From Tribonema minus (Eukaryota; Sar; Xanthophyceae; Tribonematales; Tribonemataceae), in assembly GCA_017506865.1 (NCBI GenBank), contig JAFCMP010000301.1:558001-622000 (forward strand): DNA of 64,000 bases, read 5' to 3'. The notes below the pieces were generated by a model. That model ran no database searches and was not told the origin of the DNA. It was given only the letters and a program-made list of their open reading frames with translations. Below, one piece after another: positions 7,392 to 54,400 of this stretch (the first letter of the stretch is position 1; each line of letters begins with the position of its first letter). The position numbers and the translations under genes are program-made.

Positions 7392-10300
7392 ATGCAGCCT
7401 GCAGGGCACCCTGATGGCAGCGCTCCAGCCAAGCGCCGCAAGGTCAAAAGTGGTCGCAGTTCAGCATCGGCCAGCGCTGACGGCACAGGCGACGCCAGCT
7501 TCAGCCCGGGCGCGCCTGAATACCTCTTTGCAGCCGCCCTTGAAGCTGCCCAGGAGACCCGAGTTGCCCAGCCCCTGGGTCCCGCGGCAATCAGGCTGCA
7601 CGCCCGTCTCGCGGAGCTGCACGCCAGCCAGCTGGCGCACAGGCTTTGGCACAACGGGAGGAACGCCGCTGTCTCTACGCAAATCAACAAGAGCAAGCGA
7701 TGGTCCTTTAAGGGGGACAATCCTCACTTCGGAGGGGACCCTGGCACATCCAGCATGTGCATTGCCACTGCGCTGACGGCGCTGGGGTGCTCGCAGGCGT
7801 CGGCGACCACATTGCTGCCTGGAGGGCTCTGGCGCCCATGCGACATTGCCCTGCTGCCCGTCCCCGCGCTCAAGCAGGGGATGGACGACATGGGGGCGGG
7901 AAGCCTGCGTGCGCTCGGCGGCAGCCGTGTGTGGGTGCTGGAGCTGTGCGCGCGGTGCATGCTAGATGACACCACCACCGCGCAGTACAGGGGCAGCCGC
8001 CCATATGTCGAGGCGTGCTTTGCTGCGTGCGAGGAGTTTGCGCGCAGTGAGGAGTGCAGGCGCATGCGCGCGCAGGTGCTGCAGCGCTACCTACAGGCGC
8101 TGCAGCAGCCTGGCGGTGCTGCTGCGGAGCCAGTGCCGCCAGGCTCCGCCACTGAAGACGAGATCGCCTCTCGGCAGCAGCAGTTTGCGGCGCAGCACTG
8201 CGTACACGCAGTAGAGCTCGCCAGAGCGGCGGCGGCGGAGTTCAGGTCTCCTGGCAGCAGCGCGCTGGCGGAACTTGAAGGCCCCCTCCTCAGAGGCGCC
8301 ACAAGCGCCGCAGCTGCCGCCGCCACTGCTGCTGCTGCTGAGCCTGCCGCCGCCGCCGCCGCCGTCAACGTCGCGCCCCCCATCGGCAGCACTGTCGCCG
8401 CCGCTGTCGCCGCCGCTGCCGCCGGCGCTGCCGCCGCCGCCGCCGTCAACGTCGCGCCCCCCATCGGCGGCGGCGCGGCCGCCGCTGCGCCCGACGCCGC
8501 CGTCAACATCGCGCCCCCCCTCGGCGTCGCCGCTGCTGACAGCAACGCTATCGAGGTGGCGCTGCGCCAGAAAAGAGACGAGCTCTGCGTCCGCAGCGGC
8601 AACATTACGGCGGCAGACCTGCGCAGCCTGTCGACGGGGCAGCTGCGCCAGAAGGCGGCGGAGGGGCGCGTCACGCGCACCTACTTCCTCTGGATAGAGA
8701 ACAAGCAGTTCGGGCCGGTCTTCATTGCGCCGGAGCCCGCGACGCTGATGCGCGATATTCTCGCTGCGCTGCTGGGCGTGGCGCGCTTCAAGGCCAGCCT
8801 GGTGGACGCTGCAGACGACATCCTCGTCCTGCTTGGGCTGTTCGCTAGCACGGCGGACCTGGCGCCGGCGGCGTCGCGCGCCGGCGCGGCGGCGGGGCGG
8901 CAGACGCACGCGGGGCACCACCTTCGCGGGCGCGGCAGCGACATTCTCGAGATCGTGCTGGAGGGGGCGAAGGCGTTGGTGCGGCAGGGGGGGCAGAATG
9001 CTGCAGCCTGGGGGGTGGTAGTGGAGCTCGTCGAGCACGTCATCACCTTGACCAAGGGAGCGGTCGCGGCGGCCATGCGCGCGGAGCTGTGCCTGGCCGC
9101 CGCGCGCCACGCATCTACGCAGGCGGAGACGGTGCATTTCGCTAGACTGGACGAGGTGAGCACGTGATGGCCGCAGCGCTGCTGTGTGTAGTGTCACACG
9201 GTTGTGCCATAATATTATTCACTGGATTTGAATCGCAGACCGCCCATTCCGCTCGTTTTTGGAATAAATCTGGACGAGGTATGTACATGATGGCTGCAGT
9301 GCAGTGCTCCTGTTCATTCTACAGCTATTGATTCGTTTTTTAATGGCATATGATACCTTGAAGTACAATGCATGTTTGATATGATGTTATGTGGTTTAAA
9401 CCACCTTGAACCTGTCAAGTGTTGTGAAGATTAGTTGCGCGCAGCGTCATGTACCTGCATGAGTGCTAGCATTATGGTATGGATAATACTATAGAAGTAC
9501 ATACATATGTAGGAATCCAACGATCGGGTAATACTATACATAGATAGCATCTTGTGCAGTGGGCGCACTGACAGGTGCTGCACACCGCTGCGTCATCAGC
9601 GCAATGCCACCTCTGCAGAAAAACACAGGGGTCCAGCGTGCAGCAACTTCCATTCTGAAAACGCAAACTTGAAGTCCTCAGCTTCAACATTGTACATACA
9701 CCACGCATACAGCACAACCAGTCTGAGAGTGTAGTAGCATCAAGTACTGTACCTGAGGAGTGCACCGAAAGGCTTGCGCTGCTGCCTGACGCAACGCGCG
9801 TGCACACACGTAGCTTGCACTGCTGCAGCTGCATGTCGGATAGGGTCACCATTGCGTGTGCATACATGCAGTTGCGCTACAGTATCCAGCAATGTCATTG
9901 GCAGTGGCAGTGGCACTTGAATGCTTGTGCACATTGTTGTCCTGGCGCCGTTCATTGCGTGCCATCAGCGTGGTGCTGCTGCTGCTGCTGCTGCGTATGG
10001 ATAGAAGGACATGCGCCATCTGGCGCTGCATCTATACTATGTTGTTGAAGATAAGCATGTTGATAAGCCCCAATGCAGCAGCGCTCAACAGAAAAGTCAG
10101 CTGAGTCTAAGTTCTGAGCGGATGAGATTGCTGCGCCGCCCTTTTCATTTATGCATTAAATCTTGAAGCACAAGGACCATCTGCGCTTCAATCATGCAGC
10201 ATGTGCCACCCTGACCCTTCCTACTCCCCCCGATGTACCCCCTTCCCCCTTGCCCCCCTTCCCCCCCTTCCCCAACCGCGGCACGCGCTCAGAACGCCTT

Positions 10301-12645
10301 CCCGTTCTGGCGGCAGCTGCGGGCGGTGCCGCCCTTCTGCGTGGCGCAGGACAAAGAAGCTGGCGGCCTGTGCTCGCATCTGGGCCACCTGCCAGCCAGC
10401 CTTTTGGAAGAGCGCCCGGACCACGCCATCGCCCTGCACGTCAACGGCACGAAGGTGCTGGCGACGAAGTGCGCTGAGTCGGCGGCGATCCTGGCGGACC
10501 TGGTGGAGATGCTGCTGCACGGCGAGCGCGCGGCGACCACCTACCTGCACCCCACCGACCGCTCGAAGCTCGCCACCATGCCGTTGGCGCAGCCCCTGTG
10601 GCTGACGTCCGCGACCGACGGCGACCGCCGCCTGCGCCGCCATGACTACGCGCTGGACGCACTCCACACGAAGGAGGGCAGGCTGCTGGAGGCAGGGGAG
10701 CAGTTTGAGCCTGTCATGGAGGAGATCCGGCGGCTGTTGCTCAGCGATCCGGAGGAGCTGCAGCGGCAGCGCGCGCTGGTGCAGCTGGAGATGCTGCAGG
10801 AGGACGTGAGCCGCCTGCGCTGCGAGCTGCGCCAGCGTCGGCAGGCCGGCGAGGGGGTGACCCTGGAGGAGCTGGCGTTGCAGAATCGGCCGCGCCACGG
10901 CGAGCAGGCGGCGGCGGCGGCGGCGAACGCGGCGCTGGATGACATCTCATCGTGCTGCTCGGGCACGGACTCAACGCGCCTGGTGAGAGTCAAATGAGTT
11001 TCAGAAGTGCACACGAGGTCATGAGTGTCGATGATCTGGTTGTACTACTAGTAGGGGCGGCGGTAGTTTGTTGCAGTGTCACCGTGTTAGAGGGGGGCGT
11101 GCGCGCGCCGGCACACACGTCACTGAGACCGCTGCAGTCACTGTGATTGCATGCGTGGCAGTGCTCAGAATCTGTACAACCATTCTGTGCATGATTGCAC
11201 GCGATGCGACGGCATGCAGCGTCAGTTCGGGGATGGTGCGGTATATGGTGTCTAATAGTTGACTGCAATTGATGATAGCATTGCGGTACAATAATTCACC
11301 ACAATGACGTTGTTGACAGATTCCACTTCAAGCGAGTCTTGGCAATGTTCAAGTGTCATGGAGTGTTGCTGCACGCAATCGCACGCCACTTCTCTCTTAA
11401 GACAATTGTAATGGTGGGATGAGCCGCCATGGTTGCATGACTTGATGACGATCTTCAACAGTTACAGCCGTTGACTCTGCGCACTGCCAGGTGACTATTG
11501 AGGGTCCCCCCAGGACCCCCTTCCTAACCCTAACCCTACCCCCCTTCTCGCCCCCGCCTATCCTTACCCCCCCCCCCTTCCCGCTTCCCCTTCCCCTTGT
11601 CCACGCTTCTCAAGCCACTCGCAGTGCCGCCGTCCAGCATGCAATGCCTACCAGCATGCAGCCCGTGGCTAGCATGCGAGCAGTGTACATTGCGTCGTGC
11701 CAACAACAACAACTGTGCGACTATTCATCAATCAATATTTAAACAACAAATACAGCATTGCTCAACTCGACAGTCATGGTGGGCACGATGGTGGTGACCA
11801 TCATGATGGAGTATCACACGATGCGTTTTGCATTTCAAGGTTGGCGCGCAGTCGGCACATGTATGGAACACTCAGCATCCTGCACGACTGCTTGCCGCCT
11901 GCCGCTGCAGGATGATGCATACATCACAGCCACCGCCGACCTCGATGACCCCGAGATCCACGCGAGCTACGGCGCGATGGCGGCCGCCATGCGCCAGCTC
12001 AGCGCAGAGTTTTGCTCAGACGCGGAGGACGAGGAGTGGGTCTTCCCCCTCGTCATCTGCGGCGAGGACATAGAGCGCATGGTGGGGGAGACGGGGCGCG
12101 AGCGCTGGGGGCGCGTGCTGGAGTCGGTGCGTCGGCACACGCGCCTGGCCGTCGCCGGCACACAGCAGGAGCTGCTCCGCGCCTTTGCGGAGGGGGGGGT
12201 GGCGGGCGGCTGCGGCACGCCGTGGCTCGGGCGCATGCACATCGTGCTTGTGCACGGGCGCGCGCTGCCGGCGTCTGCGGTGCAGGGGCTCACGTCCTGG
12301 GACGTTGCGGATGCCATGCCCGTACTGTGGAGGGCAGACCGCCTCCAGGGAGTCCTGGTGCCCCTCAAGGAGGGCGAGACCACGGAGTTGGTGGAGCTCA
12401 CAGAGGATGACACCTGGGACCTAGACCCAGATCTGCTGCCCGCGCCGCTCGGCACGCTGTACCACCGTAGATGCTGGGCGGTCTGCCGCGGGGTGCCTGG
12501 CACCACGGGAAGGGTGTGCAGGGCGGTGGTGGAGCGAACCGTGGTGGAGTGGTGCATGCAGCAGCACCAGGAGCCTCATGGTTACATGAACTTCACGCCG
12601 TACCCGCCCACCGAGAACCCAGTTGAAGGCCCCGGCTGCGACTAG
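7392..12645 (+). CDS. Orphan 1,062-aa nuclear-type protein, three exons
   Basis: Exons 7,392-9,155, 10,293-10,982 and 11,911-12,645, all joined in phase 0 (donors GAG|gtgagc and CTG|gtgaga; acceptors cag|AAC after a long C/T tract and cag|GAT). The ATG at 7,392 is the first in frame. Residues 14-19 (KRRKVK) resemble a nuclear localisation signal. Residues about 303-385 are an Ala-rich low-complexity stretch with three copies of VN(V/I)APP(I/L)G. Exon 2 ends in a charged, probably coiled-coil segment (about residues 726-785). Exon 3 is a mixed globular region with an acidic patch (ELTEDDTWDLDPD). I recognise no known domain. Exon 2 exists in two further decayed copies 7 kb upstream, so the family is, or was, multicopy. 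Coding GC is higher than that of its surroundings. It could be a lineage-specific host gene or part of a large mobile element; the evidence does not decide. Confidence 0.75.
9268..9305 (+). repeat. Duplicate of exon-1 3' edge and donor inside intron 1
   Basis: The exon end CTGGACGAG|gtgagcacgtgatgg recurs about 118 bp downstream as CTGGACGAG|gtatgtacatgatgg. It still carries a usable gt donor and could act as an alternative 5' splice site. Confidence 0.7.
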
Positions 12646-13966: not shown

Positions 13967-13968
13967 TA

Positions 13969-16655: not shown

Positions 16656-16732
<77 letters not shown>

Positions 16733-21400: not shown

Positions 21401-24227
21401 GCAACACCACACATGAGTAGCTTCTACCTTTCATGGAACTGTTACAAGGCCAAGTACTAAGAAGCTTAGACTACATTTCTTGCTGTTGCAGGTCTTGTAA
21501 AAGGCATGCATGCTGCCGGCAGCATCAAAAGTCTTTCACAAGCCCCCTGTCAAAAGGACATTGAAGGAAAGATGCCTTAAAGAAACACAAACAAACTTCA
21601 GTAGTATGGCGTCAGGCGGGCTCCGCGCAGACAACAACTTCAATTGCTGACATCAACTTGATGCAGGCGTGGAGACTGATTCGACAGTAGCAGAGTCAGA
21701 AAAAGCACAAGTCTTTCTGCTCTATTCTCTGTCTATGAGGACAACTTATTCTGAAGAGGTTACCATTGAATCAAGGTCAATGATCACCTCAACGTTTCTC
21801 TGCCAACCCAAGTACGTGTGTGCGCTACTGGCCCATGATGCTAGCCTGTGTGAATGCCAACGCTCGTTGAAGCTATAGAAGCAGCGTGCACCAGTCACAT
21901 ATCACTAAAAAGACATGATAGCATACTTTTACATCACACGGGACCAAAACTGGTCATTTTGGCTGTGAAGACAACTCAAGGTTTAGCTACCAAGTCACCT
22001 GAGTGGCATAGTAGGCGTATACATCGCAAGGGACTAGAGATCGTTCACGGTTGTGAAGACAAGTACAACGTGTAGAAACTCACCGACAGGGGACACCATT
22101 CTGCAAGGTCCGCACCACACCGCCGAAAAGAACACCAGCACCGGCTTTTCGCTCTCCAACACCTCCGCCCGCCACGTCTCGTCGCTGACCTCAAAGGCCT
22201 TGCTCTTTGCCGCCAGCGCTGTGCGCCGCCCTGGCAGCAAATGACAGTTAAAGAACGGTTTTAAATAAGAAGCCATTGAAATGCGATGCAGCGGGCAACA
22301 ATGTGCATTTACTGGAGCCTGCTTTTTGCCGCCAGCGCTGTGCGCCGCCCTGCCAACAAATGACAGTTACAAAACAGTTTCAATAAGAAGCCATTTGAAC
22401 AACTGCAATGAAACGGGCAGCAAAGTGCAGTTACAACCCACTTCCAACAAACATGACTTCGAGAGTGTGATGATACGTTTGCTGTAAACACCAGTCTGTG
22501 ATGTCCACACTGCTCAGCACCACGGTTTGTGTGTAAACTCGAGATACCCGTTGTTGCAGCCAATGCAGCCTACTGATGCTCATATGTACAGCATGCAATG
22601 AGGTCCATTGCGGCACACAATTTCATACGTGCAGATCTTGGTTTTTCTTTAGTGTAGAGCCGAAGATAACTTCTGGAGACACAGCAAGCCTGCAAATGTG
22701 ACGTGCTGACTGAAACGGCATGCTTCATGTAACTGATGCAGTACATTGCCCTGACAGCAGTGATTGCATGAAGTGTCACTCGGCAGCATAATGGATGCAC
22801 TCCGCACCCATCTCAACACCGCTTGTACCATTAACGATCTCAGTGTCTTGACGCTGCATTCAAATGTGATGCTATCTCAAGTGACTGCTGCTTCTTACTG
22901 ATGTATGGATCTAATCTTGCTCTTGGCGGATACCAAGCCAGTGAGAGTGCGCGCTATTCACACTTTTGAATGTGTTTTTATTTCATTGATGTGCTGATAT
23001 ACATACCCTCATCAGCGTCACCAAAAACAGCAACTTCGTGGTACGCACGGGGGCACACAGCCAGATCGGTCTGTATCGAAAGCAGAACCTTGCAGAGTCA
23101 TACTACTGCAAGATGCTGCTGCAACACAATAGCGACGATGTGAACATGCACAACGATGCGTACAGTAGTGAGCAGCACGGTATTTGAAAAGCTTCGTCAA
23201 CGTGACGTGCGATCGTGGGCACGAACGCTGGCAATGGTGTGCAACTTGTAGTAGTATGTGGAGTGCCTGCAGTACATTGCCCTGACAGCAGTGATTGCAT
23301 GAAGTGTCACTCGGCAGCATAATGGATGTACTCCGCACCCAACTCAACGCCGCTAGTACCATTAATGATCTCAGTGTCTTGACGCTGAATTCAAATGTAA
23401 TGCTATCTCAAGTGACTGCTGCTTCTTGCTGATGTATGGATCTAATCTTGCTCTTGGCGGATACCAAGCCAGTGAGAGTGCGCGCTATTCACACTTTTGA
23501 ATGTGTTTTTATTTCATTGATGTGCTGATATACATACCCTCATCAGCGTCACCTCCAACAGCAACTTCGTGGTACGCACGGGGGCACACAGCCAGATCGG
23601 TCTGTATCGAAAGCAGAACCTTGCAGAGTCATACTACTGCAAGATGCTGCTGCAACACAATAGCGACGATGTGAACATGCACAACGATGCGTACAGTAGT
23701 GAGCAGCACGGTATTTGAAAAGCTTCGTCAACGTGACGTGCGATCGTGGGCACGAACGCTGGCAATGGTGTGCAACTTGTAGTAGTATGGTGAGTGCCTG
23801 CAGCCTACGCGGGACTCGTTATGAGTTGCACAGTAAGCTCGGCAACCGATGGGGCCGTACGGTACCTGGACTGCTTGCGGTCATGACTGGCTGGCTGCCT
23901 ATCGATCTCACCCGCTGGGTACGGCCACGCAAGACGAAACAAGTGGAAGTCGCGTGCGACATGCGCATAGCAGCTACAGCCTATTGCTTCGTCGATCAGC
24001 ATGGATTTGTCTCTCTTACGTGCTGTGTGCCTTCGCCATTGCCGCACCCAAACCGGCACCACCACTCGGTGCTGTTGCTGGTGGCGCCGCTGCTGCAGCG
24101 CACAGCTCTGATGATTCGCCAAGCACCTTCCCGCCCCAGACGCCGGTTGCAAGAATGCCTGGCAGCCGTTGCAGAGCGCTAACACCAACAGCAGCAGAGC
24201 CTTGCCAGCGCTGTCGCCCAGAAGCAT
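18408..24227 (-). CDS. Plastid thioredoxin m-like protein, four exons
   Basis: Exons (minus strand) 24,227-24,020, 22,230-22,084, 19,540-19,452 and 18,530-18,408; phases agree (1, 1, 0) and give 188 aa. Residues about 10-24 are a hydrophobic signal peptide ending GCQA|FLQP, an ASAFAP-like plastid-import motif; a basic transit region follows to about residue 75. The mature domain has W108-C109-G-P-C112 (redox active), then DEVLSEYG, STDENP and VRSVPT with the cis-Pro (P153), then VVGAIPK, typical of m-type thioredoxins. Such proteins reduce disulfides of stromal enzymes using electrons from photosystem I through ferredoxin-thioredoxin reductase. It shares a 223-bp intergenic region with a divergent plastid gene. 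The 5' exon is inferred from phase and presequence; the three domain exons are near certain. Confidence 0.92.
18555..18650. repeat. Short tandem repeat next to thioredoxin exon 4
   Basis: Two to three units of about 33 bp around gcctggtggccacaccttcca, starting about 25 bp into the intron upstream of exon 4. Confidence 0.6.
19520..20000 (-). repeat. Minisatellite carrying the thioredoxin exon-3 acceptor edge
   Basis: The exon-3 start (V-D-E-V-L-S-E-Y) with its flanking intron recurs at about 19,696-19,800 and 19,850-19,940. Units are about 155-160 bp and share actccgacagcacctcgtc and gacaagcaatgagtattttc. Copies farther from the exon are more decayed. Confidence 0.75.
22201..22440 (-). repeat. 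Tandem duplication of thioredoxin exon-2 5' edge
   Basis: The segment encoding R-R-T-A-L-A-A-K-S with its upstream intron (22,203-22,310) is repeated at about 22,322-22,435. In the copy, the base change at the acceptor (ccag to tggcag on the minus strand) keeps an ag, but the coding frame soon runs out. Confidence 0.7.
22739..23803. repeat. Tandem duplication, about 531-bp unit, two copies
   Basis: The segment from 22,739 to 23,269 is repeated almost exactly at 23,270-23,803, with few substitutions (for example ccaaaaacagc versus cctccaacagc). It lies inside thioredoxin intron 1. High identity means it is recent. Confidence 0.9.
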
Positions 24228-27926: not shown

Positions 27927-30900
27927 TCATAGTTCGTCCGACTGCAATTGTTCCGTAGCCTCTGCTGCTGGCGCTTCCTGGAAGGTCTCGTTAGGCGTGT
28001 CGGCAGCCTTTTCAGGGACCATCTCAGCGGCGGGCGGGGTGTGCAGACCTGGCGGTGGCGCGCTGCAATAACAAAATGAACACAAGCAAGAGAAAGCAAG
28101 TTGCGCATGTTCAGCATAGGTTGACAAGGTGAGGAGATGGAGTGTTCGCCTCAGTGACATGCGCAAGGCTCGCCTGGCTTGTGGCTCGCGCAGTGGAAAC
28201 CACACAGAAGGCGGAACTAACACAGACAAGTGGGGACACTAGTGCACAAGTCAACCAAACTCTATGAGTACAGAGTTTCTGTCCCAACATACTGTAGCAG
28301 CACCTTGCATTGAGCAACCCATTCTCTCGCCAACACACCATTAAGGGGCGCAGCAGTTGTGCGGCGTCCTTCGGCGCAGCGCGCGTAGTGCTGATGAACC
28401 AGCTGTAGAACGCATCCTTTTCTTCGAAGTATACACCTGATGATGAAAGTTCAAGCAATGGGCACAAGACAGCAACACTTGCGACAACGCATATATGCAT
28501 ACACCAGGCGCAGGCAGCTGTGTGGCGTCCTTCGGTGCGTCGCGCGTAGTGCTGGTGAACCAGCCGTAGCACGCAACTTCTACTTTGACGTGTACATCTG
28601 ACGACTAAGGTTCAAAGCACTGGGCACAAGACAGCAACACTTGCAATCGCAACTACAAATACTTCAAGTAGTTGAAGTATATACATACCCATATGTACTG
28701 ACTTACCCGTCACCGGGCGCAGGCAGTTGTGCGGCGTCCTTTGGCGCGGCGCGCGTTGTGCTGGTGAACCAGCCGTAGGCAGCGCACAGCAGCACCAGCA
28801 GCAGCACCACTCGCATGCCAATGCCCGATTGCTGCATCAAAAACATAGCGGATTGTCGGCATGTGTGTTTGCACGTACGTACTTTGAAGAAGTTTGAGCA
28901 GTTGTAGACTTCACGATCACTTCTGTCCTAGACCAGTCCCTCACATCTGTACTTGAGAGTATGATGACCTCAACAAAAAACAAATATACATCCGACAATG
29001 TCAGCATGTGCACAGCAGCACCAGCAGCAACAACACGCGCATGCTGATGCCCGATTGCTGCAGTTGCACCAAAAACAATAGGATTGTCAGTCTGCATTTG
29101 CACGTACGTACTTTGAAATTTGAGTTCATTTTGAGGTTCACAGCGTTCAAATAAAAGCGAGGTGAAGACGCCTCAAATGTGACAGCACGTCGATCGATTC
29201 ATGTCAACAAAGTCCATGTCCATTGCCATGGAGCTCATGTTCACTGGGTGTTCATTGGGCGAAATTTGAGTCGAGCGCGCCTCAGCCACGTCAGCGCTCC
29301 ACTGCACTCCAGTTCATTAAATTCATGTTCCATCTTCATGGACTCCATATTCATTGGGTGCTCACCCTGCGAGCAGGTGGCATAGCCGCCTTGGGCTGCG
29401 CCAGACCGCCGGTTGATGTAAGAATGTCCATATAATGATGGAATTAATGATCATTGGGTGCCTCATCCTGCGAGCGGGTGGCACAGCTGCCTTGAGCAGA
29501 GCCAGACCGCCAGTTCATGAAATTCATGTTCCATCTTTATAAAATTCATGTTCATTGGGTGCTCACCCTGCGAGCGGGCGGCGTAGCTGTCCTGAGCTGA
29601 GCCATATACCGCCAGTTCATGAATTCATGTCAATGTTCATGTGACTCATGTTCATTAATTGTAGGGTTATGAGCCGGTCCCTCAAACCGTCTGAATTGCA
29701 GCCGGGGTAGCTCACCGACCGTCTAAACCGTCTAAGACGGAACTTGGTGACTGCTACCGTCTTTGACCGTCTGTTCCGTCTTAGCCGGTTGAGCCGGTCA
29801 GCTTACCAATCAACAGCGAGTTAACCCCTTTCGCCTACCCCGATCAGCGAAGCACGCTACCAATCCCCCATGCTGCATGCATCCTGACGAAGAACCAAAG
29901 TTCAACTTCCAGACTTCAACTTTCAGTTGAAGTCAACTTCCAGTTGAAGTGAACCGAAAAAAGATGTGGTGGCGGCTTGAGTGAGCTTGTGCTTGCTCGC
30001 TACCAGTGGCGGCAGCATCAGCATCCGTTTCTTGACATCGTACGTGAGCCACATGACTGCTGCTGCATGATATAAGCCGTGCGAGCCATTTCTGAAAAAG
30101 CCAGAAAAGACGGTCCCCTCGAGATCCGTCTTTTCGGCTGCCCAGACTAGCCGGAGCCGAGCCGGTTCAGACGGTTCCGGCTCGTAACTCTAATTAATTG
30201 CCTCACCCTGCGAGCGGGTGGCGTAGCTGCCTTGAGCTGCGCCAGACCGCTGCCTGCATCACTGCTTAGCGGTTGCAGATTCTCCTTCAGGGCCTTGCTC
30301 TCCAGCGCCATCCTGCAACAGCAATCGGGCGTGCGTTGTATTTTTTTATGATCAGTCATGACTTGCACTTCTCAAAATGACTCATGAGCAGCCAAACCTG
30401 CGGCACTGCTCAGAGGGTGCAGATTCTCCTTCAGGGCCTTGCTGGCCAGCGCCGTCCTGGAAAGTAAACAAAGTGTGCATTGTAAATAAAGGTGATGCTT
30501 CGCAACTAACTGACTTCGCAACTAACTCACAAGTGTGCATTGTATGAAAAAGATGTGCCTCTTGAATTATTCGTGTAGCAGCCAAATGTAAACGCCTTGC
30601 TCATCAGCACCTTTGTGGAAGTGCGACAGGCTAATCAAGGTGATCTGCATGATGCTCTTCAGTGTACAAGCATCTGGCTGTGTGAGCAAGGGTGCTGCAC
30701 CCCATGGCAAATTACTACACTACAAACTCTAACCCTCACCCTAATTCTAAACTTTCCCGACCAGGTAGTCAGTTGCGTCACACACGCACCCCCCCCGTGA
30801 CACTAAGTGATTGGTGTACGCAAATTACGATTGATGTTTTGTGGATCTGCTACAGCTGGGCCACTCCCACTTTCTTCTTGGCCACTACTTGGCCACTACA

Positions 30901-33900: not shown

Positions 33901-36900
33901 ACTGTCTAACTGCGTGCCAATGCTCGATGATGGTGCACCCAGTACGTGGTGCACTTTGAAAAGCAGTAGCGCTAGGCAACATTTTCGTGCTACTCGTGCA
34001 ATGACGAAGACAGCATTTTATTGAGGAGTTGCAGTCATCAGGAAGGGTCGCGAGCATATTTCACACTCTTCAACAAAACAGAGTAGACGAAAGTGACAGC
34101 TCTGTGCAAGGCCAGGGCTTCAGAGGTAATGTATATGGGCTGCAGTCCATGCCTAGTTTACTAATCTTACAGTAGCTACAGTGCATGCTTTGAAGTACAC
34201 TCAAGTACACTTAGTCTCTACTTGGTGTATGGTGTGACCTTGAGAACTCGCTGACAGAAAAAATAATGAAAATGTCGATTGCATCGCGTGCACTGTAGAG
34301 ACCCATGCGAGCGGCACGCGGCACAAATTTGCAGCTGAATACTCAACGACAGGAGATCATGACTGCTTCACAATGACAGGAACAAATATTTTTGCTTTGA
34401 CGGCATGTTATGTACAGCATGTACGGCCCACTGCCAATTGCTGCGCAGGTTGTTGCCAAGTGAGCGTGCCATGATGAATAATCATTGATGCAGCATAGCC
34501 ACAGTTCGGTTCTGTTCGACATTGCCAAGTTCAACACTGGAAGTTGAGCTTTGAGGAACTCCAACACGAAACACACAGGAGACAGCTGATGTGATGAAGA
34601 CAGTACTACAGCAGCAACAAGTACTCATCTGCTGCATTGGCCAATCAACAGCCCCTTTGCACCCCTCTCGTTGACTGACTTGTTGACATCCTTTCAATGA
34701 CTTGCTAGGTTTGGCAGCCCGCTTTTGCACCTTCTGACAGACTTGCTGACTCACTTGCCAGCACGCTTGCATCATTTCAATGACTCGCTGACTCACTCAC
34801 TGACTCACTTGTTCACATTGGCCCACAACCGCGTAACCTCCTCTGTGTGCCTGGCCCCCTCCAGAGCTGTAACTGCCGCAAACGCTTCCGGCTCCACAGG
34901 CGCAACTTGCACCAGGAACTGCAACAGTGGGGCAAGCGCAGGGGCGATGATCATACAGGCGGAGTGCATTGACACAACCTTTTGTTTACAAGCATACGAC
35001 GGCAGTTCAACCGGCTGGCCCAGCTGGAAATATCCTTTACACAGCAGAATGCAATGATGAAATCTGCCCTCCCGCTTTCTTCTATGTGTTGCAATGTACA
35101 CCCAATTCTCACTCAAGCGCAAACCTCAACCCTATCCCCCGCTCTCCTCGTCTGACCACACCCCATATCACTTCCGTCCGCCATCGTACCGGCCAGTTGC
35201 AGCGGTTACGGCAGTTACCTTGTCCTTGCACGGTCCCAATGTCCCCTCCTCGGCGACATCCAGCAGCTTGGAAGCTTCCCGCTCCACCTGCGGTGCGTCA
35301 CAAGGTGAAGTTCAAGGATCAATGTCGTGAATTGATCGGCTACTCCTGTGCAAGTTGCATTGAGGCAGTTGATGCTGCCGTGCTGCACAAGCAATGCCGG
35401 CAGTTGCTGTAGGGAGTAGCTACAACAGCGCCCACCGGATCCACGGGCGCATCTGATGCATGTTTGATGTGTTTTGCAGAGGTAGCGCGTACACCTGTGG
35501 CACGCGTACGGGTACGAGTTTTTGACGCGCGTTTTAACTCGTACCCGTGGTCACGGAATAACTCGTACGCGTAACCTGTCGTGTGAGGCAACAAGTAAAA
35601 TCTGCACTGGTCCACAGCTGATGACGCGCGGTACGAGTGAAAACCTCGTACACACTGCGTGCTTGCTTCAGTTGCACAAAACACGCAACTGAAGTACAGA
35701 GAATGTACACACCACAACCTACCGATGTGCGTACCGTCTTCCGAATTTAAGGACTAATGCGGAATGGCAGTAAAAGGGGGTGACCGCCAATTTGAGATGG
35801 CCAGTTAAAAGAGTGACCTATATTTGTGGAATAGGCTCAAAACGCATTGCCAGGCATCATCAGATAGCACCGGAGCTTTCTGCGCGACCGCGCCTTCAAC
35901 TTCCTTCAACTTAAAACAATTTTGCAGAGAAATGTGCGCTCGCCAGCGTCCGAAGGTAAGGTGCCAAGGCGGCTGCCAAAGCAGCTGTCTTTACTGACAA
36001 GCAACGCGAATTCAGCTTCTTCTGCACCTGTCTAGCTGCTGCAGCAAACGTGTAGCGTAGTCAAGTCAAGTAGTTCGATGAGGCCGCATCATGCGGGCCG
36101 GTGGTGACGGGGGCGATCGTCGTAAATGATGCTGACGAGGCCCCTCCGCTACGTCATCAACGCACAGCATTAAAAACGATACTAGAGAGCCTGCCGCGAT
36201 CCTGCCCCTCGCAAAGATCACTATGCCAACACTGGCTCAACAGTCACCAGCAGGAGGTTTAACTTGGCCATACAGGAGGCATGTGTGCTGAAAGTGCTTG
36301 CTGCTTGCGCAACACACCTTGTACATTTACACAGTCTCGTGCAGTGAAATGTCTGGTACCGGCTTTGTCAAAGCTGAGGCGATATGCGGCGGAGTGCATG
36401 ACCTCAACCCCCCCCCTGACCAACAATTTGGATGGCCAGTTAAAAGGGTGACCTATGATTTGGGTGGCGTAGTTGAAACTGACGCGATTGTCGGACAGTG
36501 TCCTTAAATTCGGACAAGACGGTACGTACGATGGGAGCTATGCCCAGTGCGGCGAACCCCAAGCACACCAGTCATGTGGGTGAGCTCGCCATGTAGATGG
36601 TAATGAATTCCATATTAGTTTAGTGCAATTCAATTTGAAGTATAGACAACAAACCACAACATACATGCACAACGCACGAGACAATGGGAGCTATGCCCAG
36701 TGAGTTGAACCCATATCACACCAGTCGTGTCAGCGAGCTCACCATGTAAATAGTGATGGACCAAAACACCTCAGTCGTGTCAGTGAGCTCTCCATGGTTG
36801 CGGTAATGGACCAAAACACACCAGTCGTGTTTGCAAGCTCACCATGTAAATAGTAATGGACCAAAACACACCAGTCGTGTTAGTGAGCTCACCATGTATA

Positions 36901-38238
36901 TGGTAATGGGCCAAAACACACCAGTTGTGTCAGTGAGCTCACCATGTATCTAGTAATGGACCAAAACACACAAGCAGTTGTGTAAGCGAGCTCACCATGT
37001 TTGTGGTAATGGACCAAAACACACAAGTCATGGCAGTGAGCTCACCATGTAGATGGTGATGGACCGGCTCCCTCCCGCTTCCAGCAGTCCCTGATTTGGC
37101 TGCACCAGATACCTGGATGGCTCCGTGGTTTTCACCTGAAACAGGCACAAATGTGCAGAGAGGCACGGATGTTGAGCCCTTTGAGGATGTGAAAGCACCT
37201 CGGGAAAACTTCTGCGCGGCGGAAGACTTGTGTGTGTGCGAGCGAGCAAGCTGTGGCGCAATAAAAACAAAAATGCACAGCCGGAGGAGCCACTCGGTGT
37301 TATCTGCCATAGTCAGCGAAAAGTGAGTGAGTCAACGAGTCATCGCGCAAGTATGCAACGCACGTATGCATGTACGTACAGCATCCCAGCGGTGACGTTC
37401 TTGCATGTTGTACCTGCGTTTGGTGTGCTCTTCGATAATGTATTTGTAAACTATGGCTGTGGTGCTCCATTGTTTATGCTGGATCTCAAAGGTTTCACCA
37501 ACACCCCATGCACGATTCTGTGCTCATATTCACATCGCTGACGCCAGACACATGCGCGACAATGAGCAGTGGGGATGTGATTACATGAAATGCATGAGAT
37601 GGAAACGCGGCAAACTCAGAGTATAAGGCCCACAATTGCATGCAGGCTTTCGGTTTTGAATGATGGGGCACCATGCTTGAGCAATAAGCATTCGAAATAC
37701 AGCAGCAGGCCAGGCCAATCGTTGCTCACTGACACCTAATAAAAAACAGGATGATGCAATCACTTGAGTCGTGAGTGTCGGAGGTTTCAAGTGTCGAATG
37801 GTGAACATTGGCAGTGATGACAAGCACTCAAAGCAAGTCCAACCCCGCCGATTTTGCTGCCTGTCAAACATTGCTTGAGCATGCAGTGATTTTGCATCGA
37901 GTATAGTATTACGGAAATAGACTACATAGGTGACGGTTCACGAATTACAGCCTTCAGGTAGACGACGAAAACGTCCAGACTTGCGTGCAATGATCCTCCT
38001 GCATCACCTTGAATAAAAAATATGATGCTTTGCGGCATTGCTGACTGCAATATGGGCAGGCAGGGTATCAGCAACCCACGGAATCGAAGAGTCGGCTCGT
38101 TCTTACCTTGAAGGTGGCGTGCCCACCCGCAGCCGTGGCGCTCACAGTGATCTCGCATGAAGGCTTGCCCTGCCTCGCGAGAGAGAAGAACACCACCTCC
38201 GGGCTTATGCTCACTTCAGGCATGGCTGCTCCTGACAT
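27927..38238 (-). CDS. VAP/VAP27-like ER membrane protein (MSP domain), ten exons
   Basis: Exons (minus): 38,238-38,107; 37,135-37,046; 35,287-35,219; 34,918-34,809; 33,802-33,694; 33,249-33,157; 31,615-31,509; 30,312-30,207; 28,831-28,707; 28,062-27,927. All phases agree and give 358 aa. Residues about 6-147 are an MSP domain (SISPEVVFFSL, FKVKTTEPSRYLVQPNQG, CKDKFLVQ); 190-247 are a predicted coiled coil (EEVDALRTK...LTEERDTLRRSLEDAKRSL); 278-294 are a short membrane anchor (MRVVLLLVLLCAAYGWF). VAPs tether the ER to other membranes by binding FFAT motifs. Unusually, a 64-residue tail follows the anchor and ends in SDEL, an ER-retrieval type signal. The VRPN motif of other VAPs reads VQPN here. 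An in-frame ATG at 38,295 would add 19 residues. Its introns host two TIR elements and several exon-edge repeats. Confidence 0.93.
28335..28575 (-). repeat. Two partial duplicates of VAP exon 9
   Basis: Segments encoding FYSWFISTTRAAPKDAAQ (about 28,365-28,425) and a frame-shifted relative (about 28,505-28,565) copy the 3' half of exon 9 (YGWFTSTTRAAPKDAAQ). The first is open and could be an alternative cassette, but its junctions are not clean. Confidence 0.65.
28990..29110 (-). repeat. Duplicate of VAP exon-9 5' half
   Basis: A copy of the acceptor and membrane-anchor start (Q-S-G-I-S-M-R-V-L-L-L-L-V-L-L-C) lies about 200 bp upstream of the real exon 9. Confidence 0.65.
29361..30245 (-). 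repeat. Minisatellite of VAP exon-8 3' edge and donor
   Basis: Copies at about 29,361-29,410, 29,464-29,515 and 29,563-29,615 plus the authentic edge at 30,201-30,245. Unit about 100 bp. Each carries the codons for L-A-Q-L-K-A-A-x-P-P-A-R-R followed by the donor. The last interval is interrupted by the hAT-type element at 29,662-30,192. Confidence 0.85.
29662..30192. mobile_element. hAT-type non-autonomous element (MITE) with 8-bp target duplication
   Basis: Flanked by ATTAATTG on both sides (29,654-29,661 and 30,193-30,200). The ends are TAGGGTTATGAGCCGG and, on the other strand, TAGAGTTACGAGCCGG, matching the hAT terminal consensus (C/T)A(A/G)NG. Subterminal regions are rich in ACCGTCT/AGACGGT and AGCCGG motifs in both orientations, as in transposase-binding arrays. 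No transposase is encoded in the 531 bp. It is inserted in VAP intron 8 just after position +6 of the exon-8 donor. Confidence 0.93.
30404..30460 (-). repeat. Duplicate of VAP exon-8 5' part with acceptor
   Basis: Encodes T-A-L-A-S-K-A-L-K-E-N-L-H-P-L-S-S-A-A, parallel to exon 8 (M-A-L-E-S-K-A-L-K-E-N-L-Q-P-L-S-S-D-A). It is preceded by an ag acceptor in the same phase and followed by GCAG|gtttgg. It could be a skipped or mutually exclusive mini-exon. Confidence 0.65.
32640..33160 (-). repeat. Repeat array carrying VAP exon-6 3' edge and donor
   Basis: The authentic edge (D-A-L-R-T-K|gtcagtac, ending 33,157) is copied at about 33,050-33,080 (G-A-L-I-T-K), 32,917-32,955 (D-A-L-R-T-K) and 32,820-32,850 (N-A-L-R-T-K). 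Shorter subrepeats around actgaccctgagttcattgt fill the spaces. Several copies keep a gtcagt donor. Confidence 0.8.
34730..34815. repeat. TGACTCACT simple repeat next to VAP exon-4 donor
   Basis: Imperfect units of gactcact/gactcgct run up to the exon-4 donor, so gtgagt-like words recur in tandem directly downstream of the splice site (minus strand). Confidence 0.7.
35508..35548. repeat. Perfect 13-bp inverted repeat
   Basis: ACGGGTACGAGTT and AACTCGTACCCGT enclose 15 nt. Further GTACGAGT/ACTCGTAC words lie at about 35,559, 35,631 and 35,646. It sits in VAP intron 2, about 190 bp from the TIR element at 35,731. Confidence 0.75.
35731..36525. mobile_element. Putative non-autonomous TIR element in VAP intron 2
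   Basis: Left end GTACCGTCTTCCGAATTTAA continues to GGAC; the right end read on the other strand is GTACCGTCTTGTCCGAATTT continuing to AAGGAC. The TIRs are about 24-26 bp with a 2-nt indel. Subterminal regions share a direct word ggccagttaaaagRgtgacctat. No coding capacity and no unambiguous target duplication. Size 795 bp. Confidence 0.75.
36730..37046 (-). repeat. 50-bp minisatellite of VAP exon-2 3' edge and donor
   Basis: The word agctcaccatg recurs at 36,736, 36,786 (variant), 36,836, 36,886, 36,936, 36,989 and 37,039, so the period is 50 bp. On the minus strand each unit holds a copy of the last 19 or so bases of exon 2 (S-I-T-I-Y-M codons) and the gtgagc donor. The unit at 37,039 is the authentic splice site. 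More diverged units continue to about 36,536. Confidence 0.9.
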
Positions 38239-42000: not shown

Positions 42001-45000
42001 AGTTGCAGGAACGCATTCATTTGCCAGCACTGCGTGTCTCACGCTGTTGGCCAACACTGTGTGGTAGAGACACACATCACCGTATGCCGCTCCTTTGCTC
42101 GGTAGAAAAACTCACAAAAACTTGTGTATGCGCGCAGAGATGTCCAGCCAATATCAGGCCCTAGTGCCAACCCCGCGTGACGGCACGGGCTGCTGAACGT
42201 GTACCGCTGCTTATGAGTGTTGCCGCAAAGGCAAAGGCATGCTTCTCACTGCTTGTAACCCTCGTTGCGCTTGCAAGTCTCTCTCGAAATGCGTAACCTT
42301 TGACGTGCGGTTCAGCTTTTGAGGTCTGGTGGTGTCGTTTGTTGTCTGTGCGCGCGCAGAGTTTGTGATAATGATGCGCAAGTGCGAAGTGGAGACGGAC
42401 TTTGATAGGGAGATCACAGAGGCGTTCAAGGTGCGTACGCATACGCAGATTCACACTCGCATGCAAGGACATGATATATATTGGAACGCCAAAGTCAACA
42501 GCACACACATGGTACATACGACAACCACAGACACATGTGGGAGTCGGGAAGGCACATAGGCGTTCGCACACCTTGGTGTGCATACATTTATCCACACTCG
42601 CATGCAAGACTATGGTACCGTATTATCTATAATTAAGCCCATGGGGCGAGTTTTTTATGAGAGCAAAAAAAGGGGGGTGGGGCGCCATTAATATCTGGAG
42701 GAAAAAAGGGTGGGGTTCATTAATGTTTGAGCCATTACAGCTCATTTCAACACCACCATGAGGTGCCAGCATGCTTCTACGCCGCTCCTGAAACGAGTTC
42801 AACTTTCGGAAAGCCAGCTGCTGCCTCTCGGAGCCTTTTGTGGGTTTGGGTACATTGTTAGCTGCCTTTCTGTCTGCTCCGCACGTTGCTGACAGTGCAT
42901 GCAGGCGCACACACAATGTGGTGATGTCACTGAGTGTGCATAGTACACGTATGCAGAGGGTACATGCTGCGTATGCATGTGAGAATAAAGGGGGGGGGGC
43001 ACATTTATATGAGCAAAATTTAAGGGTGGGGGCGTCATTTTATGAGGGCTCTGAAACTCATAAAAAAAACCGCCCCATGGGCTCAATTATAGATAATACG
43101 GTACATCGTATCGGAACCCCAAATGTGCGGTTCACCAGCACAAAAACATGGTAGGGCGACCACAGACGCACGCATGGCGTAGTGAGAGCGTAGATGCGTT
43201 TAAGATGTGCATATGTATGTCCACAGTTGCATGTGAAATTATGGCACACCGGAATGCTGCAATTCAAATCAACCTGCTCAAAAGCATGGTAGGGCAGTCG
43301 CAGGCACGATCAAGGTGCGCATACGTACATCCGCATACAAATGTGATACCATGGTAAACAGCAAGTGTTCACGATTCCAACCTGACAGCACACGTCGTAC
43401 TCCGATATGGTCTTGTGCTCGTGCATATACCTTAGAGCCAATCACTTTAACCCATTCTAGAGCTGGCTGTTGTATTTATCCATCAATTGAAGTTTCATGT
43501 GTTGGGCAGGCTGTAGTTCAAGTAGTTGCTCAAACGCTGATGATAGCGCATGCGCGTCAGCTCAGACACATCATACGCACACACTGCATAGGCACCCTTT
43601 GCGATACCGATGCTGCGGACCTTTGTAAGACAATGGCACTTCAACGTGCACATGAAATATGAATCTGAAGCGATCAGCGTATAGTGATCCTTGCTGACCT
43701 GCCCTTGACACAACGACGCTTCAAAGCATCCATCTGAATTCACTATTGTGTACCCATTGCAGGTATTTGACAAGGACGGGTCTGGGTCAATTGACAAGGA
43801 GGAGCTCACGGCAATCATGAAGGGGCTGGGCGCAAACCTCAGGTGAGCGTCGAGCGTTGTGGCTGGTCCGCGATACATACAGTAGGTATGTACATCAGCA
43901 GCATGCGTTGAGCGCTGTGGATGATCAGCACTACAGTAGGTAGATACGCCAGCCACGTTCGTTGAGCGCTGTGGATGGTCAGCGCTACAGTAGGTAGGTA
44001 CGCTAGCTGCACGCGTTGAGCGTTGTGGATGGTTAGCGCTGCAGTAGGTAGGTAGGTACACCAGGCGCACGTGTTGAGCGTTGTGGATGGTCAGCGATAC
44101 AGTAGGTAGGTACGCCAGCCGCACATGTTGAGCGTTGTGGATGGTCAGCGCTACAGTAGGTAGGTATTGCCAGCCACATGCTGCAGTAAGCAGGTACACC
44201 AGCCGCACGCATTGAGTGTTGTGGATGGCCAGCGCTGCAGTAGGCAGGTACACTAGCCGCGCTGTTTTACGTGCAGCAGCACAGCAATGACATGATTAAT
44301 GTTGGCAGCTTAGGGGTAGGGTTAGATTTTCTCAGCACTGTGCACTGCCTGGCTTCGAAGACCTGGTCCGCTCAAAGCATTCTGTCCAGGAAGCTCCCGA
44401 CTGTCTGTAGTGTAGTAGGTGTCTTGTGTTTGCTCGCATAATCACTTCCGACTGTTTGCTGAGATGCTTCCGTGTGGTCATATTGCATCCTGTACGTAGA
44501 CTTTGACGGTCGGAAAGAGTCTGACCAGTCCATTGTGATTCTATTGGCTGCTGCTTGAATGCGCTGTTGACACTTGACAGCGATCAGGAGATTGAGCTGC
44601 TGGTCCGAGAGGCAGATGCCGATGGCGACGGGTGAGTCAGAGCCATCAAGTAAACTCTAATGTCATCAGTTGCCATGCCTGCCATGGTGGCGATGTCTGC
44701 ACTTCGATACCAGTACAGTCTGTAGGGCAATCCAATTGAAGTTGCTGCAGTGCTCAATCCCTGCAACCTACAAGGCTGCCGGTACATGGCCTGCTCGGAT
44801 CATCGTTTCCACTGATTGTGGTAGCTGCAGAGCGGAACGCAGAGGTCAGGGGTGGGGTAAGGCTAGGGTTTGGCTTAGGGTAGCTTCTGTTCTGAGTTGG
44901 GTCACACTGTACCGCACACTGTTCTTTACCACTTCATATTTGTTGTGCCTCAAAGCGTATGCTGCCATCCTCATTTGGCATGACATGTATGCATTTGGCA

Positions 45001-49439: not shown

Positions 49440-51105
49440 CACAGGTGTACTTAGTTGCATGTGTCTGGGCTCACCAAGGGACTCCGTGCATCACCCCTCT
49501 TGCCTATATTGCCTTTATTCATCTGTGCATATGCAAGTGATGACAAGAAGGGGCCCTGAATGTCATCAAACTTTGATATGTAATGCTTTGCTTCAACTAC
49601 CTGATGACTCCAGCAAAACTCTCCAGTTCAGGTGCTAGCCCATTTGTTCATGCTCATCAAATGCATGTCACGCACCCCACTTGCATACAGGCGCTGGAAA
49701 GCCGATGCAGCTGTAGCCAAGATGTGGCATGCTGAGATTGGGATACTGCCACAGCAGCAGCTGGCTACCAGCCAAGCGCCCTGCTGTGAAAGGCAAGTAC
49801 CATACTTCAAGTATTATGCTGTGCGCATGTCGGATTTCTGAACCTGACCTGTGTTGAAATGGTTGCACGAAATGAAATGCTAGACCTGATTAGCCTGAGC
49901 CCCTGTAGTGCAACCGACATTAGCAGGCAGTTTCTGAGCTCTTGCCTCTGTTGTGCGCAAACTGTGTCACATGGCCTTCGCATGCCTTTGTGGACTTCTG
50001 CCAGTCGCATGCCAGCTTTAACTTCTGTAGTGATGTCAGCATCTCTCTGAACAAGAACATATAGGCTTCCGTGGTGGTTGTACTGCCCTGCCAGGCGTAT
50101 ACCTCTCAAGTACATACTAGTAATTTTCAAGCTGGTATACGTTAAGCACTAAAACTCACGCCTTTTCTAGGTAACGTCATCAGCACTTAATTGGTTCAAG
50201 GTAGCCGTTTTATTTTGTGCTCGTTGCATTTGGCGGAGTTCAAGTGTTATCAAGCCCTGTTCCAGGGGCAAGACCTGGTGACTCACAGCTGGACAGCGTT
50301 GGAGTCATATGCACGTGATGTCAAGTACTTAGCATGGCGGTACTCGCCATCGCATCAGAACTTCGAGTCATGTCATGCACTTAGGGCGTCAGTTTTGCTG
50401 AAGATCACAATTGTCAACGCAGTTGTGTCATATCAACTCTAGTATTTCAAGTCCTGCCTGCAGTGATCAGCAGCAAGTGCCGTTTTTGTGCACGCCATCG
50501 CACGAGACGCACAAGTAACCTGTTGCAACCGATTGCTGTTGCCTGCCTCTTGCCCGACGTCACTGCACAGGGGTCATGAGGATACAGTGCACTTACGTGA
50601 AGACTGCAACCCAGTCAGAGCTTATCTGGCTAGGTGCCACAACGAGGGGGGGGGGGGGCAGGGCCAAATCGATTAAACGGCGGATTTGAAAGGGGAGATA
50701 CTCTCATGACGCTGTAGGACAGCACGCGACCAGGCAGACAGCAACGAACGACAACAAATGCACAGCGCTTGCTTTTGCAGCCCTGCGGTAATATCTGATG
50801 TTGTTGCTGTTGATGCCGGGGCACATGCAGATGATGTCACATCATTGAGCCATGCAGCATTGAGAGTTCAGTTTTGGATGTGATTTAATTGATAAACTTG
50901 CATACTGTATCAGTTCTCACGTTACATCGGTGCTCAGCACATTTATGCAAGGGAAGCAACTGTGATCAGCTACTGTGTACACAACGAGACCACGTGCAAG
51001 GCGTTGCAAAGTGCGTGGTTCGTTAGGAGCACCCCACGACCGGCATGTTCGGTGTGATGTAAGCAGCCGACATGGGCTTGCGGAACGTGGTGGCCGCAAA
51101 TGAGA
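49440..51105 (-). repeat. 1.7-kb dispersed repeat, copy B
   Basis: Reverse-complement counterpart of 4,095-5,775, collinear over its whole length with indels. It ends about 330 bp upstream of the PdxT start codon, so it may supply part of that gene's upstream region. Confidence 0.75.
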
Positions 51106-51434
51106 ACTTGAAGTTTGGTATGCCTAAGGTGTATGGTATAGTACGCTAGGCCTTTGAGCTTTTGAACAACATTGTTGCATGCCATGTGTCAGCGACTGCA
51201 TCATCTCATGATTCAAGGGCGATATGAGTCTTTTTACAGCACTTCTTCGCTGTTGAACTTGAAGTGTTTGACTCGTCAAACCGAGTCTTCTTCGGAGTGA
51301 CCGACGCAGTGGGGTCAGCCTCGCATAGTCAGCCCACACACCACCGCAGCGCCCACCAGAGCTTCGCGACAACGATCTTGGCTGGTCACCAGTGCCATTC
51401 CTGTCGTTGCTGCCTGGCGGCTTTACACGAACAG

Positions 51435-54400
51435 ATGGCTGTACAAACCCAACCCTCCGACGCTGTACAAGAGCACGGCAAACAACACCAGGAGCAGTTG
51501 CACGTGGGAGTGCTGGCCCTACAGGGCGCCTTCGAGGAGCATGCCAACCTGCTGCGTAGCCTAGGAGCTAAAGTGACAGAGGTGAGGTTCAGTCATTTGA
51601 AAGGAGCTCAAGTTTGCAATGAGGTCGGCGCCGCACTTTGCCTGGGAAGCAATATCTGACACACCAGTAGTTGTGCCATAATTCGTATGAGAATCACATG
51701 AGTACTGGCTCGCTTTCAAGCATGTTGTCTTGCAGGGACTCAATCCGCTGGCATTTCAATCATTCTTGTCCGCTCGTGACGTGCATGATGAGGCCCATAC
51801 CTTAGTTCCTTCACTTCGTATTTGCACCCATCTGATGATTTGGCGGATGAAATCGAACAGAGGCGCAATGCTACATCACAGTGGATTTTCTCATGCCTGG
51901 GGATGAAATTAATGCAGTATTCCAATGCTCATGACAGCCCTCTCAGCATGTGATCGCAGCACTCACTAGCTCAGGACGATATGCACACAGCCGAATTTCA
52001 TCATATAGCTCTGGTCTTGTCCATCCAGCTTTGACTTACCTCCACATTGCACTACTCAGCAGTGATGATCGTGCTGGTGCTATGATACTTGGTGACGCTT
52101 GGGGGGGCTGTGCCTGCGACGCTGAGCACTGACATCGACAGTCAAACAAGCTCTTGCTCATACAGCAGGTAGACGTTGCGGATGCAGCTGGTACCGCAGC
52201 AGTCAACACTGTGCAAATGTTGATGATACTTTGAATTGTGCGGGTTGCTGGCTCTTCTGAGACCTTCATACGTACATACATACCGTCGTGGTTGCTTCCC
52301 AAGTCGACAGCGTTCGCAATCGCGCGCTCATCTTGCCCGCGACATCAAGAGATCGAACACACCACCCCTTTACACAGCGTTCTGTGCCATTGTTTTCGAT
52401 TTTGCTCTCAGGTGCGGCTGCCCGGCGATTTTGCGGGGCTGGATGCCATTGTGCTGCCAGGAGGGGAGAGCACTGCCATGGCGCTGATAGGAGAACGGTG
52501 AGTTGCAGTGGTGGTGCAGCAGAGCTCAGCAGAGCTCTTTCCTCTGTTGTGGCTAGGGTTAGTGATTGGTCTTGGCGATTATGCTGTCGCCTGGCAGGTG
52601 CGCTAACGAAACTGAAGTTGGCAACTTCAAGCGGGCTGATCAGCATATATGGTGGTCACGCTGACTTCCTGAGGTTTGGAAAGATGTAGTGTCAGGGCTA
52701 GGTTTCAAAGTTGCGTCAAAATGCCACAACTGACTTGCCAAGTTGAGCAGGGCCTGAGATCTGTGGTGCAGGCTGACTGGACGATCATGAGCTTCATTTG
52801 CTCGGCAGTAGACATGTTTGTAGACTGCAGTAGAACGCACCTGCAGTGCTTAACTCTGTAGGCGCTAAATGTGCTTGGTGTGCGCGCATTGTAGTAAGGG
52901 CGTCGACCAGTGTTGACTGCTTGTTTATATCACACAGTGACACTCGCGGTGGTGCGCTTTGCTCACTGTAGTCAGCTGCAGCTTGCGGACAGTACGCTGT
53001 AGACTCCCAGTGTGAGCACGCACGCGGCTTATAGAGCCTGGTGGGGCACGGCATCAGTATTTGTGTGTGCAACAACTGCCGCAAATTCTTCAAAGACTTG
53101 TGTTGCCTGACCTCAAACCTCGCAGTGTGTATGAGTGTGTGTTTCAATGTGTGGTCACACGCATGCACGTATCTCATGCTGTGACGAACAGTCCAACATC
53201 GTATAAATGATCACCTTTTCTAGCATTGTATCAATAATCACATCTCTCTCTAGCGCGGATGAGTATAGCCCGCAATGATAATTGCCATTCATGTGCAGGT
53301 GGGGGGTATTTCCACAGCTGCGCGAGTGGGTGGCCACGGGCAGGCCGGTCTGGGGCACATGTGCGGGAATGATTCTGCTGAGCAATGAGGCGCTGATGCA
53401 GAAGGAGGGCGGCCAGGTCAGGCCTGAACGTTTGCGCAATGATGATGAGTTGAATCACGTGTAATAATGATGACGAGGAGGGGCTGTTATTTGAAACCGA
53501 CAATACGAGCAACATGATCATCACCATGCGCAATGAAGTGTTGATGCAGGAGGAGGGCGGCCAGGTCAGGCTTTGAAGTATGCGCAATGACGATGAGTTG
53601 AAATACATGTAATGATGATGATGAGGGGGGCTGTTATCTTGAAACAGTCGTTGCAAGCAAATGATGATGCCCTTGCGCAATGAGGCGCTAATGCAGGCGG
53701 AGGGTGGGCAGGTTAGTTCTTAACGTATGCGCAATGATGAAGTACTGAGGTACACGTAATGATGCTGGCGAGATCCAAAGCAAAATGATGAACATGCTGT
53801 GAACAATGAGGCACTGGTGTACTTAGAAGCAAGGCAGCCAGGTCTGTTCCTGAACAGATATGTAGCATGCACACCGATTCAGAGCTGGATGGTGCATACT
53901 GTCGATTATGAGTACTGTTTCATACTTTGAGCAATGAGGCACTAGTGTAGCAGCAGGGCGCTCAAATCAGGTCTTTGAAGAAGAAGTATCAGTAATGACA
54001 CCAAGTTAAGGAGAGGTGAGGAAGGAGTGTTTGAGCTTGTGGCATGATGCAGAAGGCGAGTGGCCTGCTTAGGCAGTGCAACATGCGCATCGATGAATTG
54101 CTTAAGTCTATGCAAAGGAGACTGTGAAGGCATGCGCAATCATAAAGAGTGGAATCTGCGCAGTCATACATACAGAGCTGCCACAATGCTTCATGAATGC
54201 ACCCCATGTGTAGCCTGCTGATGGATGGCTAGCAGTTTTCACTGCTTCTATTTGAAATTACATACACCCGAAGCTCACCTTTTGATGCTTCTGTTGCAGT
54301 AGATGTTTCACCAGACCACTCTGTGCCAGTACATGATGTTGCCTGGAGTATTTATCTTGCTCGGTAGTGTTTGCATGTAGATGCAACTTCAAATGTGCTC

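Follow-up and report, generated by a model that had tools for sequence, protein, structure and literature searches.

The analyzed window is a 64,000-nucleotide stretch of the Tribonema minus genome (positions 558001-622000 of contig C301, in an assembly of 158 Mb and 554 contigs), in which introns of several genes carry copies of the edges of their own exons together with the adjacent splice sites. We located 17 exon junctions in the window by reading and, for each, screened the adjoining 1 kb of intron-side sequence for direct copies. Junction-spanning copies were found at five of these junctions, namely the donors of PdxT exon 3 and VAP exon 2, the acceptors of a thioredoxin exon and of a membrane-segment exon, and, weakly, the exon 1 donor of an orphan gene. 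The first-pass annotation had proposed exon-edge arrays in five unrelated genes; this proposal holds for PdxT, VAP, thioredoxin and, weakly, the orphan gene, and fails for the calmodulin-like gene. Ordinary tandem arrays are also frequent in the window.

In the PdxT gene, the end of exon 3 and its donor form a source block at 53382..53473 on the forward strand (junction 53416/53417), which is followed by two intronic copies within 53530..53740 on the same strand: 53530-53621 at lag +148 (92 nt, 85% identity) and 53677-53740 at lag +295 (64 nt, 84%). The gene belongs to the SNO family; exon 3 scores above the Pfam SNO cut-off, exon 2 scores below it, and exon 1 has no Pfam match. The end of exon 2 and the donor of the VAP gene (MSP domain) lie at 37038..37065 on the reverse strand (junction 37046/37045), adjoining an array of approximately 50-nt units, most of which contain the exon 2 edge and donor (36717..37045, reverse strand), and an outlying copy of the same edge at lag 456 (36564..36605, reverse strand). 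Altogether, six copies with lags of 50-456 span this junction at 86-89% identity, and a seventh match has only 4 exon nt. The identity of VAP exon 2 is supported by a Pfam Motile_Sperm match above cut-off and by a PDB match. In both the VAP exon 2 and the PdxT arrays, the similarity runs along most of the unit.

The thioredoxin acceptor edge (22201..22261, reverse strand, junction 22231/22230; Pfam Thioredoxin above cut-off) has one upstream intronic copy at 22320..22380 on the same strand (lag -119, 61 nt, 90%). The exon with junction 28832/28831, previously labeled VAP exon 8 and listed for its donor, is a putative member of the VAP gene, and its membrane-segment character was judged by eye. 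Its acceptor edge (28784..28836, reverse strand) is copied upstream at 29010..29062, also on the reverse strand (lag -226, 53 nt, 91%). Copies of the exon tail do occur downstream, at lags 161, 209 and 370, and a stretch at 28340..28575 on the reverse strand, with limits set by eye, holds two of the downstream tail copies; however, the donor itself has no junction-spanning match in the 1 kb searched, and the first-pass donor label is thus correct only in part. The 100-nt array attributed to VAP exon 6 is real (29309-29656), and the exon there is a candidate label only. At the orphan gene, the exon 1 donor (9147..9176, forward strand, junction 9155/9156) is matched weakly by a copy at 9270-9299 (lag +123, 30 nt, 83%) that includes only 9 exon nt; this exon has no Pfam match. 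Finally, exon 2 of the calmodulin-like gene (43763-43842; Pfam EF-hand above cut-off) has no junction-spanning match at either edge within the searched range, and the 54-nt array in the intron that follows this EF-hand exon (43847 to approximately 44270, forward strand) is intronic and does not represent an exon-edge copy.

Exon-edge copies outside the window

An independent set of 72 introns from 20 conserved genes, all located outside the window, was built on exon positions from whole-genome searches with the Cpn60/TCP1, kinesin and HSP70 families. The set was drawn from all ten TCP1-type loci listed and from 12 HSP70 or kinesin loci, the latter selected, ahead of any inspection of their repeats, because several of their listed exons lie close together; most kinesin loci and many HSP70 loci lie outside the sample. 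Splice sites were assigned from profile continuity, reading frame and a position matrix seeded with the canonical consensus, which solved 73 of 76 exon pairs; one of these was removed as a duplicated exon end taken as an exon, leaving 72 introns. The splice sites of this set are thus predictions from sequence, with a donor consensus of approximately (C/G)AG·GTRMG and an acceptor consensus of approximately GCAG·G (the dot marks the junction). All comparisons were made inside this one assembly. At locus L032, a TCP1 gene on contig C5, the profile search took a copied exon end for an exon in the intron after position 4711; therefore, automatic annotation may misplace exon ends at such arrays.

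A junction copy was counted when at least 8 nt on each side of the junction were matched in the same intron with a score of at least 20. Such copies are present at 19/72 donors and 15/72 acceptors, in total 34/144 or roughly one sampled junction in four, whereas the same queries compared with introns of other families gave 0/288 for donors and 0/288 for acceptors. The first-pass suggestion of a genome-wide process thereby gains support beyond the window. An exon-only query at 80% identity detected 32 donor-type copies, spread over 20 introns, together with 24 acceptor-type copies in 12, and no copies in introns of other families. At least one copy occurs in 28 of the 72 introns and in 12 of the 20 genes, four introns have copies of both edges, and the copy number per intron reaches six; the lags are divisible by three in 10/32 donor-type and 13/24 acceptor-type copies. 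A whole-genome search with three blocks, which scores only the best candidates and may pass over weaker copies elsewhere, returned matches confined to the own intron and strand (three for PdxT, five for VAP and six for a TCP1 gene, query included).

The copies share their orientation with the source. At a score of 16, direct copies occur at 21/72 donors and 20/72 acceptors, and inverted copies at 0/72 and 0/72, with one each appearing at a score of 14. They are also anchored on the junction: among the 36 introns of at least 620 nt, the donor signal is highest at position 0 (15/36) and falls to 5/36 at +15 and 3/36 at +30, and the acceptor signal likewise falls from 13/36 at 0 to 9/36 at -15 and 2/36 at -30. 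Points placed 45-75 nt into the exon yielded repeats at 15/216 and 19/216, and intron-interior points at 20/280 (copy downstream) and 15/280 (copy upstream), the interior search length being unmatched to that of the junction tests. Two HSP70 paralogs differ in this respect: the gene on contig C190 has copies at three donors and three acceptors, whereas its paralog on C522, with matching splice positions, has none of these edge copies. Thus, exon-edge copies with their splice sites are a real feature of these introns, forming local, multi-copy repeats in the same orientation across a high fraction of predicted junctions and differing between paralogs. As direct copies at short distance within one locus, they have the form of local tandem duplications, and the duplicated unit, composed of exon edge, splice site and intron, crosses the junction.

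Near-identical copies (at least 40 nt, at least 95% identity) were observed at 8/72 donors and 3/72 acceptors (11/144 junctions), as compared with 4/576 downstream and 3/576 upstream for the intron interior (7/1152; 576 points, both directions), which corresponds to a Fisher odds ratio of 13.5 (p = 4e-7) with GC content unmatched. In a separate gapped test restricted to GC of at least 0.6, copies were found at 9/29 donors and 12/47 acceptors versus 87/873 and 90/869 interior points, an excess of approximately threefold or less in a comparison where the interior points include the edge copies themselves. The interior repeat frequency climbs with GC, and the junction excess lies mainly at GC-rich junctions. 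Introns with copies have a median length of 928 nt versus 498 nt for those without; this agrees with the earlier claim that the arrays lengthen introns, although longer introns also offer more room for copies.

Divergence of exon-derived blocks and intronic spacers

Between intronic copies, the exon-derived blocks are 85% identical on the donor side (24 pairs) and 89% on the acceptor side (20 pairs), as compared with 62% and 55% for the adjacent intron; across the independent set, the values range over 85-91% for blocks, 54-62% for adjacent intron and 49-50% for shuffled sequence. Spacer identity is 0.59 (donor) and 0.54 (acceptor) versus the 0.75 predicted from block divergence under neutral decay. 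In individual tests of neutral decay, 24 of 56 pairs gave p<0.05 and the other 32 are compatible with neutrality; the spacers of some arrays are still recognizably similar. Substitutions amount to 106/1653 in the exon part and 161/1105 in the aligned intron part, and gap events to 8 versus 37. The differences within copies comprise 58 synonymous and 48 non-synonymous changes, where 29% synonymous would be expected if they were random. At copy sites where the exon of a paralog differs (four gene comparisons), the copies carry the base of their own exon in 67 of 76 cases, that of the paralog in six and another base in three; thus, the copies are largely younger than the paralog split or have been refreshed since.

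The replication slippage considered in the first-pass annotation, in its simple form with subsequent neutral decay, fails to explain either the blocks that outlast their spacers or the junction excess of near-identical copies. A rise of divergence with distance from the exon, also described there, is weakly apparent in the independent set, where the copy nearest to the exon is the more similar one in 9 of 13 arrays, with two equal and two reversed; in the window, the VAP array is flat.

Proposed mechanism

We propose, at a probability of roughly 55%, that recurrent tandem duplication across splice junctions has shaped these introns and that the exon subsequently renewed the exon-derived part of the copies, unless that part was shielded in some other way. 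As the entry step, short stretches straddling the exon-intron border, each comprising approximately 10-135 exonic nt, the splice site and part of the intron, would be duplicated repeatedly, in tandem and in the same orientation. Each copy would land inside the intron and be harmless while the original splice site stays in use. Duplications lying wholly within exons would be purged by selection, and those crossing the border would persist because the original site still splices, so that introns would lengthen into rows of exon-edge copies. The intronic spacers would then diverge fast and the exon-derived block would keep its likeness to the exon. We infer both the duplication events and the later refreshing or protection: the conserved exon may act as a template that renews nearby copies via short-range gene conversion or template switching, or the copies may be protected by other means.

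A further-reaching version, which we put forward only tentatively, regards exon edges as conserved master templates for self-renewing intron arrays, in which junction-anchored duplication followed by exon-templated homogenization would constitute a genome-wide engine of intron growth. If so, the arrays would also serve as a store of near-copies from which exon ends could be rewritten.

Several points weigh against duplication with later refreshing. At GC 0.5-0.6, the gapped test gave 3/35 donors and 4/23 acceptors versus 84/1289 and 74/1304 interior points, with little excess at donors; hence, a duplication process tracking GC-rich exon sequence must be taken seriously as an alternative to one specific to junctions. 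The 36 long introns show secondary rises of the signal in their interior (7/36 at +90 and 8/36 at -150). The compared blocks had been preselected at 80% or higher identity to the exon, which favors blocks, the 56 tested pairs are not independent, and the neutral model relies on assumed indel rates. Spacer identity is slightly above the shuffled value of 0.49, and with spacers so close to that value the tandem origin of some copies is read from lag and orientation. The differences at the three codon positions (27, 19 and 60) would fit a partial constraint acting on the copies, and gene conversion is no more than a putative route of refreshing.

Alternative explanations

Local tandem duplication might occur uniformly along genes, or be driven by GC content only, and be followed by neutral decay, so that edge copies would be conspicuous merely through their conserved and GC-rich exon partner. 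An exon-intron pair would be expected to diverge about half as fast as an intron-intron pair, which would keep edge copies visible longer; the abundance of ordinary tandem arrays in the window, the repeats found in intron interiors, their rise with GC and the small donor excess at GC 0.5-0.6 all fit this explanation. However, slower decay was reckoned to confer an advantage of at most about twofold, as compared with the approximately 13-fold higher frequency of near-identical copies at junctions (GC unmatched), and the spacers have diverged beyond what the blocks allow. We therefore consider this explanation possible but rather unlikely.

Insertion of exon-edge fragments into the intron by templated break repair, instead of tandem duplication, would account for some near-identical blocks that lack a similar flank, such as a block of 52/52 nt at lag 120 and one of 66 nt (98%) at lag 233. 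Since inverted copies are absent from the 72 introns at a score of 16 (one each at 14), break repair in random orientation is disfavored. The anchoring of copies on the junction, as opposed to a scatter across the exon, and the recognizable likeness of spacers in some arrays also speak against insertion, and we judge it improbable.

It is somewhat more doubtful still that selection maintains the copies because they serve as decoy or regulatory splice sites. The blocks are conserved relative to spacers, and the splice dinucleotides are intact in many copies (GT in 23/32 donor-type and AG in 22/24 acceptor-type copies), in line with the rows of decoy sites that the first-pass annotation described. 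Yet identity across the exon block is 90.7%, whereas the donor GT has a matching T in no more than 25/32 copies, and the C522 HSP70 gene dispenses with all edge copies of its C190 paralog at matching splice positions. If decoys were used, just 7 of the 56 copies would give an insertion that keeps the reading frame open, and thus mostly broken messages would be expected. Rather than supplying isoforms, the decoys are probably a burden, one that the spliceosome avoids.

A mobile intron family (introners) or classic intron gain by AGGT tandem duplication, which the strong AG·GT-like borders might suggest, was rejected as very improbable, since the 72 introns and the window share almost no intron sequence between different genes (five short pairs) and the signature of AGGT gain is absent at a score of 12 (0/72 for an exon 1 tail at the end of the intron and 0/72 for an exon 2 head at its start). 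An assembly artifact is least credible of all, as the copies are mostly several percent diverged from their source and vary in spacing.

Relation to known systems

To our knowledge, intron growth and the survival of junction duplications are known only from scattered cases. Among the matches listed in the open-licence literature, with subscription papers outside this coverage, there was no genome-wide description of the junction-copy pattern. The closest published case found concerns one gene of potato, the RdRp gene, with a reported tandem duplication that spans the border between intron 1 and exon 2 (PMC4974935). It resembles the copies described here in that a local duplication crosses an exon-intron boundary with its splicing signals; however, it created a new intron, whereas here existing introns hold copies at 34/144 sampled junctions. 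In the model of Rogers (1989), as summarized in a later paper (PMC3443670), an exon segment containing AGGT is tandemly duplicated and an intron is made from it; the model resembles our case in that genic segments are duplicated in tandem along with their splice sites, but its intron-gain signature was seen in 0/72 introns here. In human segmental duplications, too, minisatellites elongate introns, as well as exons, and they can turn on cryptic splice sites; anchoring on junctions is not part of the description found in that source, which deals with genes in segmental duplications (PMC2812944). Introners likewise represent large-scale intron change in eukaryotes, but they are elements copied among many genes (PMC9860276), whereas the spacers observed here are gene-specific. 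Looser relatives are the human minisatellites and the link between intronic minisatellites and alternative splicing outlined for Caenorhabditis elegans (PMC4039745).

With own exon-edge copies in 28 of 72 introns, duplication rate, decay, decoy inactivation and exon-templated repair would become directly measurable, and such a genome would test how the spliceosome handles many near-identical competing sites.

Other features of the genome and the window

Three contig pairs (C90/C179, C70/C489 and C296/C490) have gene matches with identical scores, which suggests duplicated loci or haplotypes assembled apart; such pairs could serve for comparing array alleles. The genome encodes light-harvesting proteins, as of a photosynthetic organism. 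The best PDB matches of one exon are multi-repeat LHCI chains (9vfj), followed by the single-domain chains ACPI, CAC and cac, names that belong to cryptophyte proteins; a second stretch has no PDB match.

In the window, two copies of a 445-nt unit, 98% alike, lie at 59814-60705, shortly after a long open frame (59284-59772), and look like a young tandem duplication of the whole unit. The similar-looking open frames at 2276-3246 and 10215-10997, found on both strands, look like members of a dispersed gene family. A perfect TGC repeat of approximately 24 units occupies 16658-16728.

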